In this document: piece by piece, positions 229-16,962 of the stretch | Numbering within the stretch: position 1 is the stretch's first letter | Layout of the letters: each line of letters opens with the position of its first letter | NCBI GenBank assembly: GCA_009692615.1 | Contig: SHYW01000009.1 | Coordinates: 1-64,000, forward strand | Reading direction: 5' to 3' | DNA from: Deltaproteobacteria bacterium | GTDB lineage: Bacteria > Desulfobacterota > Binatia > UBA9968 | Length of the DNA stretch: 64,000 nucleotides | Notes under the pieces: generated by a model | What the model was told of the DNA's origin: nothing | The model's database searches: none | What the model saw: only the letters and a program-made list of their open reading frames with translations | Program-made: the position numbers and the translations under genes

Positions 229-828
229 CTAACGATCGGCGAGCAGCGCACGCAAATCACTCAGCATCGTCGTCACGACCGGATTCGGACCGATGTAGAC
301 GACGCGCAACGTGCCATGGCGATCGACGATAGCCGTCAACGGCGTGTGGTCGATTAGGCCGCGACCTTTCCGCTTGACCCCAACACCGAAGTTTTTCCAA
401 ACCGCTCTGAGCTTACTTTCTTCGCCGGTGAGAAACGCCCAGTTGTCCAACTCCGCGCCATAACGTTGGGCGTAACCGGCCAACACCTTCGGCGCGTCGA
501 TTTCCGGATCGGTGGTGATCGTTAGTAGCTGAATATCCTTGCGCTCAGTAGCGGATAAGCCGATTTGCACTTGGCGCATGGATGCCGTCAGCAGCGGACA
601 AACATCGGGACAAGTGGTGTAAGCGAAACTGACGAGAACCACCTTGCCTCCGAGTTGACTGAATCGAAATGTTTGGCCGCTTTGATCGGTGAGGATGAAA
701 TCGCCAATCGCCAGTTTAACTTCACGGCGCTGGGTCGAACTTTGAGGCGCGGTCGCGGCAAGCACGAAGATTGGCGAATTTATTAGCAAGACAACCGCAC
801 AAAAGGGTAACCAACTGCGAATTGTCAC
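229..828 (-). CDS. SCO1/SenC-type copper chaperone, exported
   Basis: A 199-residue protein of the SCO1/SenC/PrrC family, thioredoxin-fold proteins that bind copper and help to build the CuA centre of cytochrome oxidase or act as periplasmic thiol reductases. It has a signal peptide (about residues 1-24), the copper-binding CPDVC motif (Cys73, Cys77) and the distal ligand His161 in IDHTPL. Length and motif spacing are normal. Its start overlaps the stop of the upstream cytochrome c gene by 4 nt (ATGA), so the two are almost certainly co-transcribed and translationally coupled. It is one of three SCO proteins in the first 15 kb. Whether this copy serves an oxidase or another copper enzyme cannot be read from the sequence. 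Confidence 0.93.
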   Translation of the reverse strand: MTIRSWLPFCAVVLLINSPIFVLAATAPQSSTQRREVKLAIGDFILTDQSGQTFRFSQLGGKVVLVSFAYTTCPDVCPLLTASMRQVQIGLSATERKDIQLLTITTDPEIDAPKVLAGYAQRYGAELDNWAFLTGEESKLRAVWKNFGVGVKRKGRGLIDHTPLTAIVDRHGTLRVVYIGPNPVVTTMLSDLRALLADR

Positions 829-7047: not shown

Positions 7048-8283
7048 ATGACTGATAGACTTAGCGGATTACTTCCGTTCCTATTATCGCTGCTGGTTTT
7101 CGGTTGCAGCGCGGAACTGATCGAACGCGGCATGGGAGCTCGCTCGGCGAGAATAGAATTCGGCGCAGAAATCCATCTCGGCGATGGCACGCGCAATCCC
7201 TCGACGCCGTTTCTCCGTTACCGTGCCGATGGCCGGCTATTCGCGATCTGGACCGAAGACAACGCCGGCATGAGCGCCACGACGAAACCGACTCAAGCGC
7301 ACGAACATGTCGCCGGCAAGATGGCACCCTCGCCGCTGCGCGTAGCGCTGCTCGCGGCGTCCGCCCAAGTGAATAGCGATTCGGAAGAAATTCAGGGCGA
7401 GGAAAATGGTCCCAAGGTTGCCTTCGGCGCCGACAACCGAGCTTACGTAGCTTGGTCAATCCCCAGCGCGATAGGCGACAAAACCCGCGCCAACATTCGC
7501 TTCGCCATGGATGACGGCAAAGGCGGCTTCACATCGGCGCGGACTTTGAACGAAGTCAAAGATGCTGCGCGCTTTCCGATCATCGAGCTCGCGCCCGATG
7601 GCAACTTTCTAATTGCCTGGATCGACCGGCGCGTCGACGGACCCCAGCTGCGCCAGCTCTATCTCATGCGCATGAATTCAAACGGCCAGGCGGCGACGAA
7701 AAATTATCAGGTGGGCCAGGGTCTCTGCGAATGCTGCAAGCTCGGCATCGCATTTGCCGATGGCGGGAAAACGATTTACATGGTCGACCGCGAGGTCAAT
7801 GACAAACAAATTCGTAATCACGTGCTGCGCAAGTCGTCCAACGGCGGCGCGACCTTCGCCGCGCCGGTGCAAATCAGCGACGACGGCTGGCAGGTTCCGT
7901 CATGCCCGCACTCCGGTCCGAGCATCGGCCGCGACAGTCGCGGCCGACTGCACGTCAGTTGGTTCACCCTTGGCCGCACCGAACAGGAAGCCGGTATTTA
8001 TTACAGCAAGTCGAAAGACAGCGGCAAAAGTTTTGCGCTGCGTCAGTTGGTGCAGGCCAACAGCGCGCCCGAGATTCTCTACAACAATCTGGTGGTCGGT
8101 GACGACGATACGGTCTACTCGGCTTGGAGCAATCTCGATAGCAACAACCGCGCGCAAATATATCTGCGCCTGCTCAACGCCGACGAGCAAAGCTGGAGTC
8201 CGATCCAACAAGTGAGCAACGCCAAAGGTAACGCCAGCCGGCCAAGCTTGGCCCTGCGCCATAACCAACTCCACATCGCCTGA
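7048..8283 (+). CDS. Beta-propeller (BNR/sialidase-like) lipoprotein, cut short by an in-frame TGA
   Basis: An exported lipoprotein (lipobox LVFGC, lipidated Cys20) followed by a six-bladed-propeller-type domain with Asp-box-like repeats (SSNGGATF, SKDSGKSF). It has a CECC motif and a CPHSGP motif typical of a cysteine-containing branch of these proteins. The start at 7048 has AGAGGGA upstream. Four blades end in the pattern [hydrophobic]-A/S-W (YVAW, LIAW, HVSW, YSAW); the fifth reads LHIA followed by TGA at 8281-8283 where Trp is expected. The same frame continues for 19 more codons to a TGA at 8341-8343, which would overlap the ATG of the next gene in the ATGA manner seen elsewhere here. 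So the ancestral gene most likely ran to 8343 and a TGG to TGA change removed its last strand. Confidence 0.8.
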   Translation: MTDRLSGLLPFLLSLLVFGCSAELIERGMGARSARIEFGAEIHLGDGTRNPSTPFLRYRADGRLFAIWTEDNAGMSATTKPTQAHEHVAGKMAPSPLRVALLAASAQVNSDSEEIQGEENGPKVAFGADNRAYVAWSIPSAIGDKTRANIRFAMDDGKGGFTSARTLNEVKDAARFPIIELAPDGNFLIAWIDRRVDGPQLRQLYLMRMNSNGQAATKNYQVGQGLCECCKLGIAFADGGKTIYMVDREVNDKQIRNHVLRKSSNGGATFAAPVQISDDGWQVPSCPHSGPSIGRDSRGRLHVSWFTLGRTEQEAGIYYSKSKDSGKSFALRQLVQANSAPEILYNNLVVGDDDTVYSAWSNLDSNNRAQIYLRLLNADEQSWSPIQQVSNAKGNASRPSLALRHNQLHIA

Positions 8284-8339: not shown

Positions 8340-8891
8340 ATGAAATCGGTAAACGTAAGAATGAGCTTAACCGTAGCCTTGCTCTGGCTGCTGGCGACTG
8401 CGTTAACCACATCGACCGCCAGCGCACAGCATGTTCATCCAGCGAATCCGGGCACAGCGCCAACCGTCGGCGCCGCGGCAGTCCCTTTCGAACTGAAATC
8501 GATGGAAGGAAAAACGCTCACGTTAGAAACTTTTCATGGCAAACCGCTGGTGTTAATTTTTTTCGCCAGTTGGTGCGATCCCTACCGCGATGAAATGCCG
8601 CTCATCAACGAGCTGGCATCACAAGGAAGCAAAGAAGGTTTCAGCGTGCTCGGCGTCGCCGTCGAAGATACCCGCGCCGCGGTGAGCGAATTCGCTAAGG
8701 AAGCGAAACTAATTTTTCCGATCGCCCTGGACCTGAACAGCACCGTCAAACGAGCCTATCGTATCTTCGGTCCACCAGCGACTTTTTTCATCGACGGGCA
8801 AGGCATCGTTCGCGACATCGTCCTCGGCCCGGCGACAACGGAACGGGCGCGCAAGGCGTTAAAGAAAACTGGCTTGGTCGGCAAACAATGA
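8340..8891 (+). CDS. TlpA/ResA-like periplasmic thioredoxin with a CxxY active site
   Basis: A 183-residue exported thioredoxin-fold protein (signal peptide ending ASA, mature start QHVHP). The fold signatures are intact: FFASWC, EMPLINEL, the cis-Pro region GPPATFFID (Pro146) and the extra TlpA-type strand. The active site reads WCDPYR: Cys79 is kept but the second cysteine is Tyr82 (codon TAC, one transition from TGC). It therefore cannot cycle as a dithiol; it could act as a monothiol, a metal-binding or scaffold protein, or be losing function. It overlaps the next gene by 4 nt and probably overlapped the ancestral end of the propeller gene, so it belongs to the same operon. Confidence 0.88.
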   Translation: MKSVNVRMSLTVALLWLLATALTTSTASAQHVHPANPGTAPTVGAAAVPFELKSMEGKTLTLETFHGKPLVLIFFASWCDPYRDEMPLINELASQGSKEGFSVLGVAVEDTRAAVSEFAKEAKLIFPIALDLNSTVKRAYRIFGPPATFFIDGQGIVRDIVLGPATTERARKALKKTGLVGKQ

Positions 8892-10444: not shown

Positions 10445-11326
10445 ATGATGAAAAAATTTCTTCTCCCGCTCTGCGCCGGTTTACTGCTGGCGTTGCCGGC
10501 GCTCGCTTGGTTAGTCAACAGCGATGCGAGCCCGCGCCAAGAACCGGTACAAGCGCTGAGCCAATATCTGCGATTTCTCTACGCCCGGGATTTTCGCCAA
10601 GCCTACCGTTTCATTTCCGCCGACGACCAAGGATTAAAAAATGTCAACGACTATGTCCGCGAACGGGGATCGTTCAGCGGCTTCACGTTGGCGCTGGCGG
10701 CCAGGCTCGCCGGTTTGATCGAAGTCAATCAGCTCGCCAGCGTCGCCGAGGGACCGCGCCAGCGCGTCACCGTCGCCATGAAACTGCCGGACGCCAACAG
10801 CATCGCGCCGCTATTGCACGACTGGGATGACAAAAAATTGAATGCTCTATCCGCGCCGGCACGCAGAAACCTGCTGTCGACCATCGATAAAATGATCGGC
10901 GCCGGCAAACTACCGATGATCGAAGGCGAAGAAAAATTCGTCCTGAGCAAAGAAGGCTCCAAGTGGAAAGTCTTTCTCGACTGGGCCGCCGGCGTCCAAG
11001 TACAGTTCAGCGCCACCGTGCCGGGCAACGCAATCAGCGCCACGGCGCTCAGCAAAAGCACAGTAGCGCGCTCCGGCGATCTATTTACCGTCGGTTTCAA
11101 AGTGGTCAACCGGTCAGCCAAGGAGATCGTCACACGCATCGCGCACCGGGTCGAGCCGCAAGAGTTCGCGCAATATTTGGATCTCGTCGAGTGCGCGCTT
11201 TTGCTGCCGGTGCGGATTCAGCCCGGCGAGGAGCAGATTTATCGCAGTACCTACTCGGTCCGCGGCGATTTACCCGATGGCACTAAACTGCTCAACGTCA
11301 CCTATGAATTCAAGATCGAAAATTAA
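10445..11326 (+). CDS. Exported NTF2-like protein with a Cox11/CtaG-like C-terminal domain (copy 2)
   Basis: A 293-residue paralogue of the protein at 8888, with the same two-domain plan: signal peptide or anchor (1-25), NTF2-like region (about 35-185; YLRFLYARDFRQAYRFIS, then WKVFLDWAAGV) and a Cox11-like region (about 200-293; GDLFTVGFKVVNRS, HRVEPQEFAQYLDLVEC, then LNVTYEF). The single conserved cysteine is Cys250, again at the first Cys position of Cox11's copper motif. The two copies are clearly diverged, so the duplication is old. Its 3' end overlaps the SCO gene start by 23 nt, tying it to copper-chaperone expression. Confidence 0.75.
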   Translation: MMKKFLLPLCAGLLLALPALAWLVNSDASPRQEPVQALSQYLRFLYARDFRQAYRFISADDQGLKNVNDYVRERGSFSGFTLALAARLAGLIEVNQLASVAEGPRQRVTVAMKLPDANSIAPLLHDWDDKKLNALSAPARRNLLSTIDKMIGAGKLPMIEGEEKFVLSKEGSKWKVFLDWAAGVQVQFSATVPGNAISATALSKSTVARSGDLFTVGFKVVNRSAKEIVTRIAHRVEPQEFAQYLDLVECALLLPVRIQPGEEQIYRSTYSVRGDLPDGTKLLNVTYEFKIEN

Positions 11327-11921
11327 CTTCTGGCTCATAGCTTGTTTTGGCATCGGTCTGATCACCTCCTACGCCCAGGCGCATATCCCGATTCCGCCGA
11401 AACAACCGAGTGAAATCGGCCGCCGTCTGGTCAAGAGCGTCGTCGCCGATTTCAAATTGATCGATCAGAATGGCAATCCGTTTCAGATGGCAACGAGCCG
11501 CGGCAAGGTCGTTTTAGTCAATTTCATCTTCACCACCTGCCCCGATGTTTGTCCGCTGCTGAGCGCCAAAGTCGCCGCCATCCAACGCGCTTTGGATGAG
11601 AAGAAAATTAAGAACTATTGGCTGCTCAGCATCACCACCGATCCGGAACGCGACAGCGCAGCCGTCATGAAAGATTACGCCGGACGCTTCAAAGCCGATC
11701 TGAACCACTGGTCGTTCCTAACCGGCGCGCGCGCAGATTTGGTAAAGGTTTGGAAAGCGTTCGGCGTCAACGTTACCAAACCCGATTCCGGACAAGTTTT
11801 TCACACTGCGCTGACCACGCTCATCGACCGTCAAGGGCTGCGCCGAGTCGACTACTACGGCGACAAATGGCTCGAGCCCGAAGTGCTCAAGGATTTTCAG
11901 TGGCTCAGCGCGCAAAAGTAA
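11304..11921 (+). CDS. SCO1/SenC-type copper chaperone (second copy)
   Basis: A 205-residue SCO-family protein. A signal peptide ends near AQA, and the CPDVC motif (Cys79, Cys83) and His167 (VFHTAL) are the copper ligands. I chose the ATG at 11304 because the signal peptide begins there; it overlaps the Cox11-like gene by 23 nt. It is the only member of this run with an assured copper-chaperone family and is the main reason to read the 6-12.5 kb cluster as copper-related. The downstream gene starts inside its 3' end. Confidence 0.92.
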   Translation: MNSRSKINFWLIACFGIGLITSYAQAHIPIPPKQPSEIGRRLVKSVVADFKLIDQNGNPFQMATSRGKVVLVNFIFTTCPDVCPLLSAKVAAIQRALDEKKIKNYWLLSITTDPERDSAAVMKDYAGRFKADLNHWSFLTGARADLVKVWKAFGVNVTKPDSGQVFHTALTTLIDRQGLRRVDYYGDKWLEPEVLKDFQWLSAQK

Positions 11922-14263: not shown

Positions 14264-14917
14264 ATGAACGGCTCAAAAAATCAATTTATAATTCTCGGCG
14301 GCGTAGTCATCTGTTTGGCTATCGGCTTGGGCACGGCGCTGTGGCTGAGACTCGGGCCCTACCCGCAGCTCGCCGGCATGAAAAACAGCAGCGCCAGCGA
14401 TGACGGGTTGAAACAGTACGGCGCGGTGCCGGATTTCCATTTAACCGAACGCAACGGCGACGCCGTCACGCTCGCTCACCTGCGCGGGCGAATTTGGATC
14501 GCTGATTTTATTTACACCAGCTGCACCGACACCTGTCCGCTCCAAACCGCGATGATGGCGCGGCTCCAAGAAGAATACGCCGGCAAGCCCAACTTCCAGT
14601 TGGTCTCAGTCACCGTCGAACCCGAGCGCGATACACCCCAAGCGCTGTCGGCGTACGCGGCGAAGCATAACGCCGATGCCAAGCGCTGGTTCTTTTTGAC
14701 CGGCCAGCGCGATCGTATTATCAGCTTGATTCATGACGGCTTTCATCTGAGCGTTGCACCGCTGCCCGGCAGCGGCGAAGAGAGCGGCATGATCGCCCAC
14801 AGCCCGCGCTTCGTGTTGATCGATGGCAATGGGCAAATTCGCGGCTACTACGACAGCCGCGAACTGACAGCTTTCGTCCGGCTCAAAAACGATGTGGACA
14901 CCCTTTTGAAAGGATAA
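14264..14917 (+). CDS. SCO1/SenC-type protein (third copy), membrane-anchored
   Basis: A 217-residue SCO-family protein with an N-terminal transmembrane helix (about residues 8-29) rather than a cleaved signal. The ligand motif is CTDTC (Cys87, Cys91) and the distal His is His179 in IAHSPRF, followed by VLIDGNGQIRGYY. It differs from the two CPDVC copies and sits 3 nt before the VKOR-thioredoxin gene, so in this operon it is more likely to act in thiol redox than in strict copper delivery, though both remain possible. Confidence 0.92.
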   Translation: MNGSKNQFIILGGVVICLAIGLGTALWLRLGPYPQLAGMKNSSASDDGLKQYGAVPDFHLTERNGDAVTLAHLRGRIWIADFIYTSCTDTCPLQTAMMARLQEEYAGKPNFQLVSVTVEPERDTPQALSAYAAKHNADAKRWFFLTGQRDRIISLIHDGFHLSVAPLPGSGEESGMIAHSPRFVLIDGNGQIRGYYDSRELTAFVRLKNDVDTLLKG

Positions 14918-14920
14918 GCG

Positions 14921-15796
14921 ATGGCGAGCGACAATAAAAATCCCAAAGGGAAACAACCGGCGGCTAAAATGTTTCTGCGCGACGGCCCCAATTGGCCACT
15001 ATTTGTTCTTGCCGTCCTCGGTGTCGCGTTGTCCGGGTATCTTACCTTCACCGCCTGGCAAGGACGACTGGTCGCCTTCTGCAGCGCCGGTGCCGGCTGC
15101 GATTTGGTGCTCAACAGCCGTTGGTCGACGCTGTTCGGCATGCCAACTTCGTTCTGGGGATTGCTTACCTACGCGCTGCTCGCCGCCGTGGCTTGGAACC
15201 GTTACGCCGACAGCCAATGGCGATGGGCCTGGTTCATATCGCTGTTCGGCGTACTCTTCAGCGTCTACTTAACTTCAATTTCGTTTCTCGAACTCAAAGC
15301 CGCCTGCCCTTATTGTCTGACCTCGCTCGGATTGATGACGGCGATTTTTCTCCTGACGAATTTTCAACGGCCGGAGAATTTGCCCAAGTTTGCTTGGGGA
15401 CCATGGCTCGGCAAAACCGTCAGCGTCGCCGCCGCGGTGATCGTCGCGTTGCATTTATATTTTGCCGGCTATTGGGGCTCAGCCCCCGGCCCGGAAGATC
15501 CTTGGGTCAGAGGGCTGGCCGATCATTTGACTAAGGCCGGGGCTAAATTCTACAGCGCCTCTTGGTGTCCGCACTGCCAAGAACAGAAGAAAAAATTTGG
15601 CGCCTCGGTCAAACGCATTCCATATATCGAATGCAGCCCCGGCGGGCCCCAAGCGCCCCAAGCGAAAGAGTGCAAAGACAAGAACATCGAGAGTTATCCG
15701 ACCTGGATCATCGACGGCCAGCGGCGCACCGGAATTCTGGAACTGGACACCCTGGCGCAGATTACCAAATTCGACTACCAGGAAGGCAAACCCTAA
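14921..15796 (+). CDS. VKOR-type quinone-linked thiol oxidase fused to a thioredoxin-like domain
   Basis: A 291-residue inner-membrane protein. Residues 25-180 are the vitamin K epoxide reductase fold with its periplasmic cysteine pair (Cys54, Cys60) and the active site CPYC (Cys129, Cys132). A C-terminal periplasmic thioredoxin-like domain carries SWCPHC (Cys216, Cys219). Bacterial VKOR replaces DsbB: it passes electrons from the fused or separate DsbA-like partner to quinone and so drives disulfide formation. The gene lies between an SCO protein and a rhodanese, 3 nt and -1 nt away, in one periplasmic redox operon. Confidence 0.94.
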   Translation: MASDNKNPKGKQPAAKMFLRDGPNWPLFVLAVLGVALSGYLTFTAWQGRLVAFCSAGAGCDLVLNSRWSTLFGMPTSFWGLLTYALLAAVAWNRYADSQWRWAWFISLFGVLFSVYLTSISFLELKAACPYCLTSLGLMTAIFLLTNFQRPENLPKFAWGPWLGKTVSVAAAVIVALHLYFAGYWGSAPGPEDPWVRGLADHLTKAGAKFYSASWCPHCQEQKKKFGASVKRIPYIECSPGGPQAPQAKECKDKNIESYPTWIIDGQRRTGILELDTLAQITKFDYQEGKP

Positions 15797-16260
15797 TGCG
15801 ATTAACTGCAACCAAACTTTTTCTCGCCGCCAATATTTTCTGCGCTAGTTATTTAATCGCCCCACCTGCGGTCCAGGCCGATCCGTCGAAGTATCCTGAA
15901 TTTGCCCAGCAAAATTTGCCACCCGACATCGTTCCCGCGTTTGTCAACGTCGACGAACTGATCGAAGTCGTAAAGGCTGGCGCCAAACCACTAATCATCG
16001 ACGTGCGTACCTTGGCCGAATTCAATGAAGCGCATATCCTCGGCTCGGTATCGGCTCCCTTGGCGGAGTTCAAAGAGTTCATCAAAACCATCCCGCGCGA
16101 CCGGCCGATAGTGCTCTATTGAGCTTGCCCCCACCACCTGGCCAGTCTGGCCTATGGCATTCTCTACGAAAACGGTTACCGCAATATGAAAGTGCTCAAC
16201 GAAGGCATCATCGGTTGGTATGAAAAGCGCTATCCGATGGAAGGCTCGATGTTCAAGTAG
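15796..16260 (+). CDS. Exported rhodanese-like protein with TGA at the catalytic cysteine position (candidate selenoprotein)
   Basis: A signal peptide (ending VQA) and a rhodanese domain: NVDELIEVVKAGAKPLIIDV, RTLAEFNEAHILGS, RPIVLY. The next codon, where rhodaneses have the catalytic Cys (typically VLYCACP), is TGA at 16120-16122. The frame then stays open for 45 sense codons, completing a normal domain (ACPHHLASLAYGILYENGY, NEGIIGWYEKRYPMEG) to TAG at 16258. Downstream of the TGA, GGCCA-GTC-TGGCC (16140-16152) forms a 5-bp stem whose loop starts with G, 22 nt after the TGA, which fits the usual bacterial SECIS geometry. The product would carry Sec-Ala-Cys-Pro. If selenocysteine is not inserted, the protein stops at 108 residues and is inactive. 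It overlaps the VKOR gene by 1 nt. Confidence 0.7.
16140..16152 (+). promoter_or_regulatory. Candidate bacterial SECIS hairpin
   Basis: GGCCA pairs with TGGCC around the 3-nt loop GTC. The loop begins with G and lies 22 nt after the in-frame TGA, within the 16-37 nt range described for bacterial SECIS elements. The stem is short but all strong pairs except one. The element lies inside the coding sequence, as it must. Confidence 0.45.
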
Positions 16261-16269
16261 CCGGACCCA

Positions 16270-16962
16270 ATGATCGGCACCGACGCTGTCATTTTACTAA
16301 GCGGCGGCATCGACTCCGCCACCGCCGCGGCGATCGCCAAACAGCAGGGCTTCCAACTGCACGCCCTGAGCTTTGACTACGGTCAACGCCACGCCAGAGA
16401 ACTCGAATCGGCGGCGCAAGTAGCGAAATTCTTGGCTGTTAAATCGCATCGAGTCATTCGCTTCGATTTGCGCGCCATCGGCGGTTCGGCGCTCACCGAT
16501 CAGATCGAAGTTCCCAAAGAAAGAAGCGAAGCGGCCATCGGCCAAGGCATTCCGATCACCTACGTGCCGGCGCGCAACACGATATTTTTATCCTTCGCCC
16601 TCGCTCTCGCGGAGCGGCTCGAATGCGCCGACATTTTCTTTGGCGCCAACCAACTCGACTACAGCGGCTATCCCGACTGCCGGGAAGAATATATTCAAGC
16701 ATTCGAGGCCATGGCCAACCTGGCGACCCAGGCCGGCGTCGAAGGTAAAAGTCGGATGAAAATTCATGCGCCGCTCCTGCATATGACCAAAGCGGAGATC
16801 GTCAAACAGGGCATGGCGCTCAATCTCGACTACAGCCTGACCTGGAGTTGCTACGATCCGCAAAGCGATGGCCGCGCCTGCGGCGGTTGCGACAGCTGCC
16901 TGCTCCGGCTCAAGGGTTTTAAAGATGCCGGCGCGCTCGACCCGATCGCTTACGCGCGCTAA
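16270..16962 (+). CDS. queC: 7-cyano-7-deazaguanine synthase QueC
   Basis: A 230-residue PP-loop ATPase that converts carboxy-deazaguanine to preQ0 in queuosine (or deazapurine DNA) synthesis. The ATP-binding LLSGGIDS (about residues 9-16), the [11 protein letters not shown] motif and the zinc cysteines Cys194, Cys204, Cys207 and Cys210 (CxxC-type cluster in RACGGCDSC) are intact. It starts 9 nt after the rhodanese. No queD, queE or queF is in the window, so the neighbours do not decide between tRNA and DNA modification. Confidence 0.96.

Follow-up and report, generated by a model that had tools for sequence, protein, structure and literature searches.

A predicted rhodanese selenoprotein with a Sec-x-Cys-Pro loop, encoded beside VKOR-thioredoxin and SCO proteins in Candidatus Binatota

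The open reading frame at 15796-16260 of the window (the whole stretch of 64,000 nucleotides analysed here) very probably encodes a genuine selenoprotein, a rhodanese in which an in-frame TGA at the position of the catalytic cysteine would be read as selenocysteine (Sec), giving a Sec-x-Cys-Pro active-site loop. This reading of the gene sequence is favoured because the TGA is conserved among homologues, the frame is under selection, a hairpin of suitable form follows the TGA, and the Sec machinery is present. The source is an uncultured soil/groundwater bacterium from a little-studied phylum, Candidatus Binatota, to which the class Binatia belongs in the NCBI taxonomy. Standard annotation will either end such a gene at the TGA or label it a pseudogene. 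The features of the locus are as follows.

14264-14917, plus strand: SCO1/SenC protein, a copper/thiol chaperone in the same presumed operon (Pfam SCO1-SenC, E 1e-27)
14921-15796, plus strand: VKOR-thioredoxin (VKOR-Trx) fusion, a membrane disulfide oxidoreductase and the overlapping upstream partner (Pfam VKOR, E 2e-26)
15796-16260, plus strand: predicted selenoprotein gene, probably exported single-domain rhodanese of 154 residues with Sec109 (UGA) and Cys111 (translation, Pfam, orthologues, AlphaFold2 model)
15796-15882, plus strand: probable Sec-type signal peptide, residues 1-29 (sequence inspection)
16120-16122, plus strand: UGA codon, very probably read as Sec, at the catalytic-Cys position (24/24 close homologues have TGA, distant ones TGC/TGT)
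16126-16128, plus strand: TGC, Cys111, the presumed resolving partner of Sec109 in U-x-C (invariant across all aligned orthologues)
16140-16152, plus strand: putative SECIS hairpin GGCCA-GUC-UGGCC, 5 bp with a 3-nt loop (bSECIS limits, frozen synonymous sites, rebuilt in two relatives)
16270-16962, plus strand: QueC, 7-cyano-7-deazaguanine synthase, the downstream neighbour (Pfam QueC, E 8e-76)

The start codon of the rhodanese gene (ATG, 15796) overlaps the TAA stop of the VKOR-Trx gene in the sequence TAATG, and the frame closes at TAG 16258-16260 with 45 sense codons between TGA and TAG. The product reads MRLTATKLF...RPIVLY-U-ACPHHLASLAYG...MFK*, with the TGA at the start of the rhodanese active-site loop (RPIVLY-U-ACPHHLASL). 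The match to Pfam Rhodanese (PF00581) spans the TGA and scores 54.6 bits (E 1.6e-14) against a gathering score of 22.2. The AlphaFold2 model (mean pLDDT 86.7) contains a strand at 105-108, a loop at 109-113 and a helix at 114-125, placing residue 109 at the strand-loop-helix site occupied by the catalytic Cys in the rhodanese active site, and its top Foldseek matches in the PDB are solved rhodaneses. The N-terminus resembles a Sec signal peptide and the protein is probably exported; cleavage is predicted after A-x-A, before DPSKYPEF, and both the hydrophobic N-terminus and the DP[SG]xYP boundary are kept in the ortholog alignment. An earlier note on this DNA had placed the TGA at the catalytic-Cys position with 45 sense codons up to TAG, and the coordinates and the homologue alignment agree with it; it had also proposed from the sequence a Sec-Ala-Cys-Pro motif in a protein exported next to VKOR-Trx and SCO, and both features are consistent across the family.

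Homologues were sought among 58 relatives, with a profile against 148 genomes of the class, and in 395 genomes spread over the phylum. The 58 relatives yielded 23 close homologues, the window's own included, each with a single TGA, always at this codon; the 22 others from Binatia are 39-74% identical to the window protein. The profile search recovered this set of 23 (E 1e-72 to 2e-52); beyond it the next matches were rhodaneses at E 2e-25 or weaker, nearly all without an internal stop. One exception among these weaker matches, examined over its full length (G013:C452), is a gene of the CxU type described below, with its TGA at the other of the two positions. One further homologue came from the phylum-wide search, in a genome of another class (L147 in G181); it keeps the TGA (VVFY-U-ACPHFLASLAY) and has the same hairpin, and its frame is broken upstream of the TGA. 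In total, 24/24 close homologues, all from independent assemblies, have TGA at the homologous codon, and Cys111 is invariant, the motif being U-A/Q-C-P in every orthologue. In distant homologues from Myxococcota, haloarchaea and a WOR-3 bacterium the loop is Y-C-A-C-P-H-H-L, and the codon aligned with the TGA is TGC or TGT.

The 23 Candidatus Binatia genomes that carry the gene fall in three families. Most genomes with the gene are metagenome assemblies, and the named records of the family are mainly metagenome assemblies of "Deltaproteobacteria bacterium" or Candidatus Binatia. Two otherwise normal orthologues have a broken frame, L021 (G023) after the TGA and L147 before it; both breaks are probably assembly errors.

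The putative SECIS hairpin opens its loop with G at 16145, 22 nt from the TGA, and has the family form GGCCA-GUY-UGGCC. The bSECIS model describes a stem of 4-16 bp, a loop of 3-9 nt with G in its first two positions, a spacing of 16-37 nt and a minimum free energy (MFE) of -7.5 kcal/mol or lower (PMC13188914). In all 24 homologues the hairpin lies within the limits for loop, stem, G and spacing. The MFE is below -7.5 when 38 nt (-10.1) or 46 nt (-14.7) are folded, and for the 26-nt core (-7.4) it falls just short. The GGCCA-GTC-TGGCC hairpin described in the earlier note, with its loop G 22 nt after the TGA, lies within the published limits. Across 22 codon-aligned members, synonymous identity at codons 113-119 reaches 0.84; the 111 windows of the gene that do not overlap this stretch average 0.478 (sd 0.063). 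Wherever residue 116 is Ala its codon is GCC, wherever residue 117 is Ser its codon is AGT, and CTG stands at residue 115 in 22/23. Stem variation is minimal, consisting of single-side variants in L012 and L024 and of a rebuilt hairpin in L026 and L027 (genomes G031 and G032), where the usual stem is lost and ACCU-GUCC-AGGU is formed instead, with the lower stem extended and its loop again opening with G, at 17 nt past the TGA. The stem being nearly invariant, there is little to count, and covariation was dropped as proof of the hairpin. Nor is the hairpin accepted as stand-alone proof. When the stretch was recoded synonymously, 84% of the recodings fit the loose model, 36% had a stem of at least 5 and 4% were as stable as the real one; many Cys homologues also form hairpins fitting the loose model, at scattered places, and no conserved hairpin was found at the SECIS position in the Cys-x-Cys rhodaneses. 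The hairpin evidence is persuasive because the structure is conserved across the family, not because of its stability in a single sequence.

Beyond the TGA the rhodanese frame evolves under purifying selection, with a median pairwise dN/dS of 0.14 there as against 0.32 before the TGA, both rough values from the Nei-Gojobori method on near-saturated pairs. The Tyr codon that precedes the UGA (16117-16119 in the window) is TAT in 23/23, while TAC is common elsewhere in the gene; this is possibly a codon-context effect on UGA decoding.

The genome to which the window belongs (98.7% complete) contains selB (410 bits, over the cut-off), selA (617 bits) and selD (372 bits), which adjoin one another on a single contig (C70), and a tRNA-Sec on another (C142) that scores 74.9 bits and is called by ARAGORN as tRNA-SeC with anticodon tca. 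The earlier note had suggested a search for exactly these four genes, and all are present. Of the two outcomes that it had named as telling against Sec, neither occurred: selB and tRNA-Sec are both found in the genome, and it is not the case that close relatives all carry TGC/TGT and this strain alone TGA, since every close homologue aligned has TGA and only distant ones have TGC or TGT. The selD gene of the window genome (L049, C70:1609-2535; also L048) itself carries an in-frame TGA, and selenophosphate synthetase is thus a further predicted selenoprotein.

Among the 23 Binatia genomes with the rhodanese gene, selB is over the cut-off in 18. The remaining five retain at least one Sec gene, namely selD (G002), selA (G010), tRNA-Sec (G014), tRNA-Sec with selA and selD (G023), or tRNA-Sec with selA (G025), and in four of these five the assembly consists of 620 to 790 contigs. 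G002 and G010 yielded neither selB nor tRNA-Sec, presumably reflecting incomplete assemblies. In G009, a genome scored 100% complete, selB, selA and tRNA-Sec were not found and neither was a UxC rhodanese; SCO, VKOR-Trx and QueC are kept there in order, with the rhodanese missing between them.

Other readings of the UGA fare poorly against this evidence. A canonical tRNA-Sec (tca) at 74.9 bits, the sole UCA anticodon among the genome's eight best tRNA-Sec-like matches, speaks against the insertion of Cys (or Ser), whether through an atypical UCA tRNA or through sulfur use by SelA; there are reports of such recoding in nature, and here it is very unlikely. Low selenium is expected to cause some termination at any Sec codon, and the UGA might accordingly be a real, regulated stop giving a truncated protein of 108 residues. 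Such a protein would be missing both the active-site loop and the final helices, and dN/dS is lower beyond the TGA than before it, so that a regulated stop is still harder to credit. The idea of a pseudogene, or of a sequencing or assembly error at the TGA, could draw on the fact that the window does hold nonsense changes (see TGA 8281 below); the same TGA in 24 independent assemblies, followed by a frame under purifying selection, leads us to reject it as having a negligible chance of being correct.

Most of the gene-bearing genomes of two families (f1 and f3) have SCO and VKOR-Trx immediately before the rhodanese, and QueC lies directly downstream in most of family f1; in family f3 QueC was not detected beside the rhodanese. 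In four genomes (G009, G015, G019, G028) SCO and VKOR-Trx are present without the rhodanese, and in two others (G007 and G012) the rhodanese is located away from VKOR-Trx. Because the rhodanese is sometimes apart and VKOR-Trx sometimes alone, the rhodanese is accessory to the operon rather than obligatory, and the partnership is optional.

Our best guess for the function, based on motif and gene context, is an extracytoplasmic thiol or persulfide oxidoreductase. SelB would deliver Sec-tRNA(Sec) to the UGA at 16120, with the hairpin that follows at 22 nt as its guide, and the ribosome would read on to the TAG. Sec109 would then act as the catalytic nucleophile, sharing its active-site loop (U-x-C-P) with Cys111. 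Outside the cytoplasm, the selenolate would attack a disulfide, persulfide or other sulfane-sulfur substrate, and Cys111 would resolve the resulting intermediate by forming a Se-S bond. The Sec109/Cys111 pair would then be reset by a thiol partner, for which the thioredoxin domain of the adjacent VKOR-Trx is the most plausible candidate. Taken alone, this redox mechanism, with Sec109/Cys111 and a thiol partner, has in our judgement about an even chance of being right.

The main rival for the chemistry is a sulfurtransferase role, in which Sec109 would serve the transfer of sulfur (or selenium) rather than dithiol redox: thiosulfate or a similar donor would load it as a Se-SH persulfide for delivery to an acceptor, and Cys111 would be structural or protective. 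The active-site position is canonical for such a role, and the fold and the nearest solved structures are those of rhodaneses, including sulfurtransferases and persulfide-handling fusions. Against it, Cys111 is invariant in all UxC members, and a pair of chalcogen residues with one position between them is retained in CxC, CxU and UxC alike, a pattern that suggests a redox or resolving role for two residues together; moreover, the usual neighbours are thiol-redox proteins. Sulfur transfer is therefore a reading that we regard as possible but somewhat doubtful, and one that sequence alone cannot separate from the Sec109/Cys111 redox pair.

A 2026 review lists five forms of rhodanese selenoprotein, with the motifs UxxS, UxxG, CxU, UxxG and UxxxxU, and UxC is absent from these five (PMC13188914). 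Forms 1 (UxxS), 2 and 4 (both UxxG) and 5 (TsoB, UxxxxU) share with the window protein a rhodanese domain with Sec (PMC13188914). They differ from the U-x-C-P rhodanese by their listed motifs, a separation that is drawn from descriptions and not from an alignment; the UxxS and UxxG motifs of forms 1, 2 and 4 do not occur in the U-A/Q-C-P orthologues, and TsoB is described as rhodanese/DsbD fusion-like and is listed with two Sec (PMC13188914). A search of the literature on Binatota and selenoproteins gave no paper, in a coverage without preprints and most subscription papers, so that UxC has possibly been reported. Within the same review, UxC is found in a thioredoxin-like selenoprotein and a Cu/Zn transporter, and the thioredoxin-like proteins Sec.1 (CxU) and Sec.2 (UxC) provide a precedent for mirror-image pairs, although their domain is thioredoxin-like (PF13192) and not rhodanese (PMC13188914).

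Form 3 (CxU) corresponds to NF041203, rhodanese_LYCAU, a "rhodanese-related (seleno)protein" (PMC13188914). It shares with the window protein the rhodanese fold, a Sec in the same active-site loop, two chalcogens one apart and a hairpin just past the UGA. In NF041203, however, Sec is the second residue (C-x-U), whereas in the window protein it would be the first, catalytic residue (U-x-C), and the hairpin sequences of the two types differ. The window protein scores 56 bits against NF041203, where the cut-off is 115, and the best E-value of 22 UxC members is only 1e-17; membership was rejected both by score and by Sec position. A true member of NF041203 is present in G001 (L130, 151.5 bits), and weaker relatives occur in other Binatia. 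The CxU-type relatives examined have Y/F-C-x-U with Sec second in 10/12, with a hairpin of different sequence; in L132 and L139 the Sec is replaced by Cys or Ser. The CxU-type set consists of L130, L131/L144 (G013), L133-L138, L140 and L141, some of which are longer and have membrane-like segments. CxU and UxC genes coexist in four genomes (G001, G005, G012, G013).

The nearest non-Sec relatives found are the Cys-x-Cys rhodaneses of Myxococcota, haloarchaea and WOR-3, which share the loop, with Cys in place of the UGA-encoded residue. They differ in the Cys codon, in the lack of a conserved hairpin at the SECIS position, and in being only 30-44% identical. In a tree of 60 rows, the CxU proteins are split from UxC and CxC by a well-supported branch (99/97) and the UxC proteins group together with modest support (77/81); the tree used 119 columns and has several long branches, and does not fix the exact history.

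The UxC rhodanese would bring the rhodanese-type selenoproteins to six, placing Sec in the catalytic position and its partner Cys two residues further along. With the CxU type it provides a natural pair within one class, and sometimes within one genome, through which to ask why selenium would occupy the attacking or the resolving position of a two-residue redox motif. It also raises the question of the role of selenium beside a VKOR-Trx protein. We tentatively suggest, as a joint proposal that has less than an even chance of holding in every part, that the U-x-C rhodaneses of Binatota and relatives are unreported selenoenzymes forming an extracytoplasmic Se-S redox/persulfide pair that works with VKOR-Trx and SCO, and that Sec was gained twice, at either Cys of a C-x-C loop, in separate rhodanese lineages. 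If this is true, the extracytoplasmic flow of electrons or sulfur in these lineages depends on selenium.

Elsewhere in the window, TGA 8281-8283 is found near the end of a 440-residue ORF other than the rhodanese gene, in the context ...HIA-TGA-TEIDG and with 20 codons beyond it (TEIDGEDSRVVMKSATVQR). It was rejected as a second Sec codon, given the 20 codons downstream and a likely Trp, and seems to be a nonsense change in a Trp codon or else a sequencing error. The earlier note had cautioned that the window contains genuine nonsense changes, citing this TGA, and rightly so, as by appearance it is an ordinary one. Of the other long frames in the window that run through a TGA, some were inspected by eye and resemble gene boundaries or antisense frames. 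At 8340-8891 there is a TlpA-like exported protein of the thioredoxin type that has WCDPYR where WCxPCR is expected, the second Cys of the CxxC being missing. Three SCO-like proteins are encoded within 15 kb, at 229-828 (minus strand), 11277-11921 (plus strand) and 14264-14917 (plus strand), the third being the one checked with Pfam.
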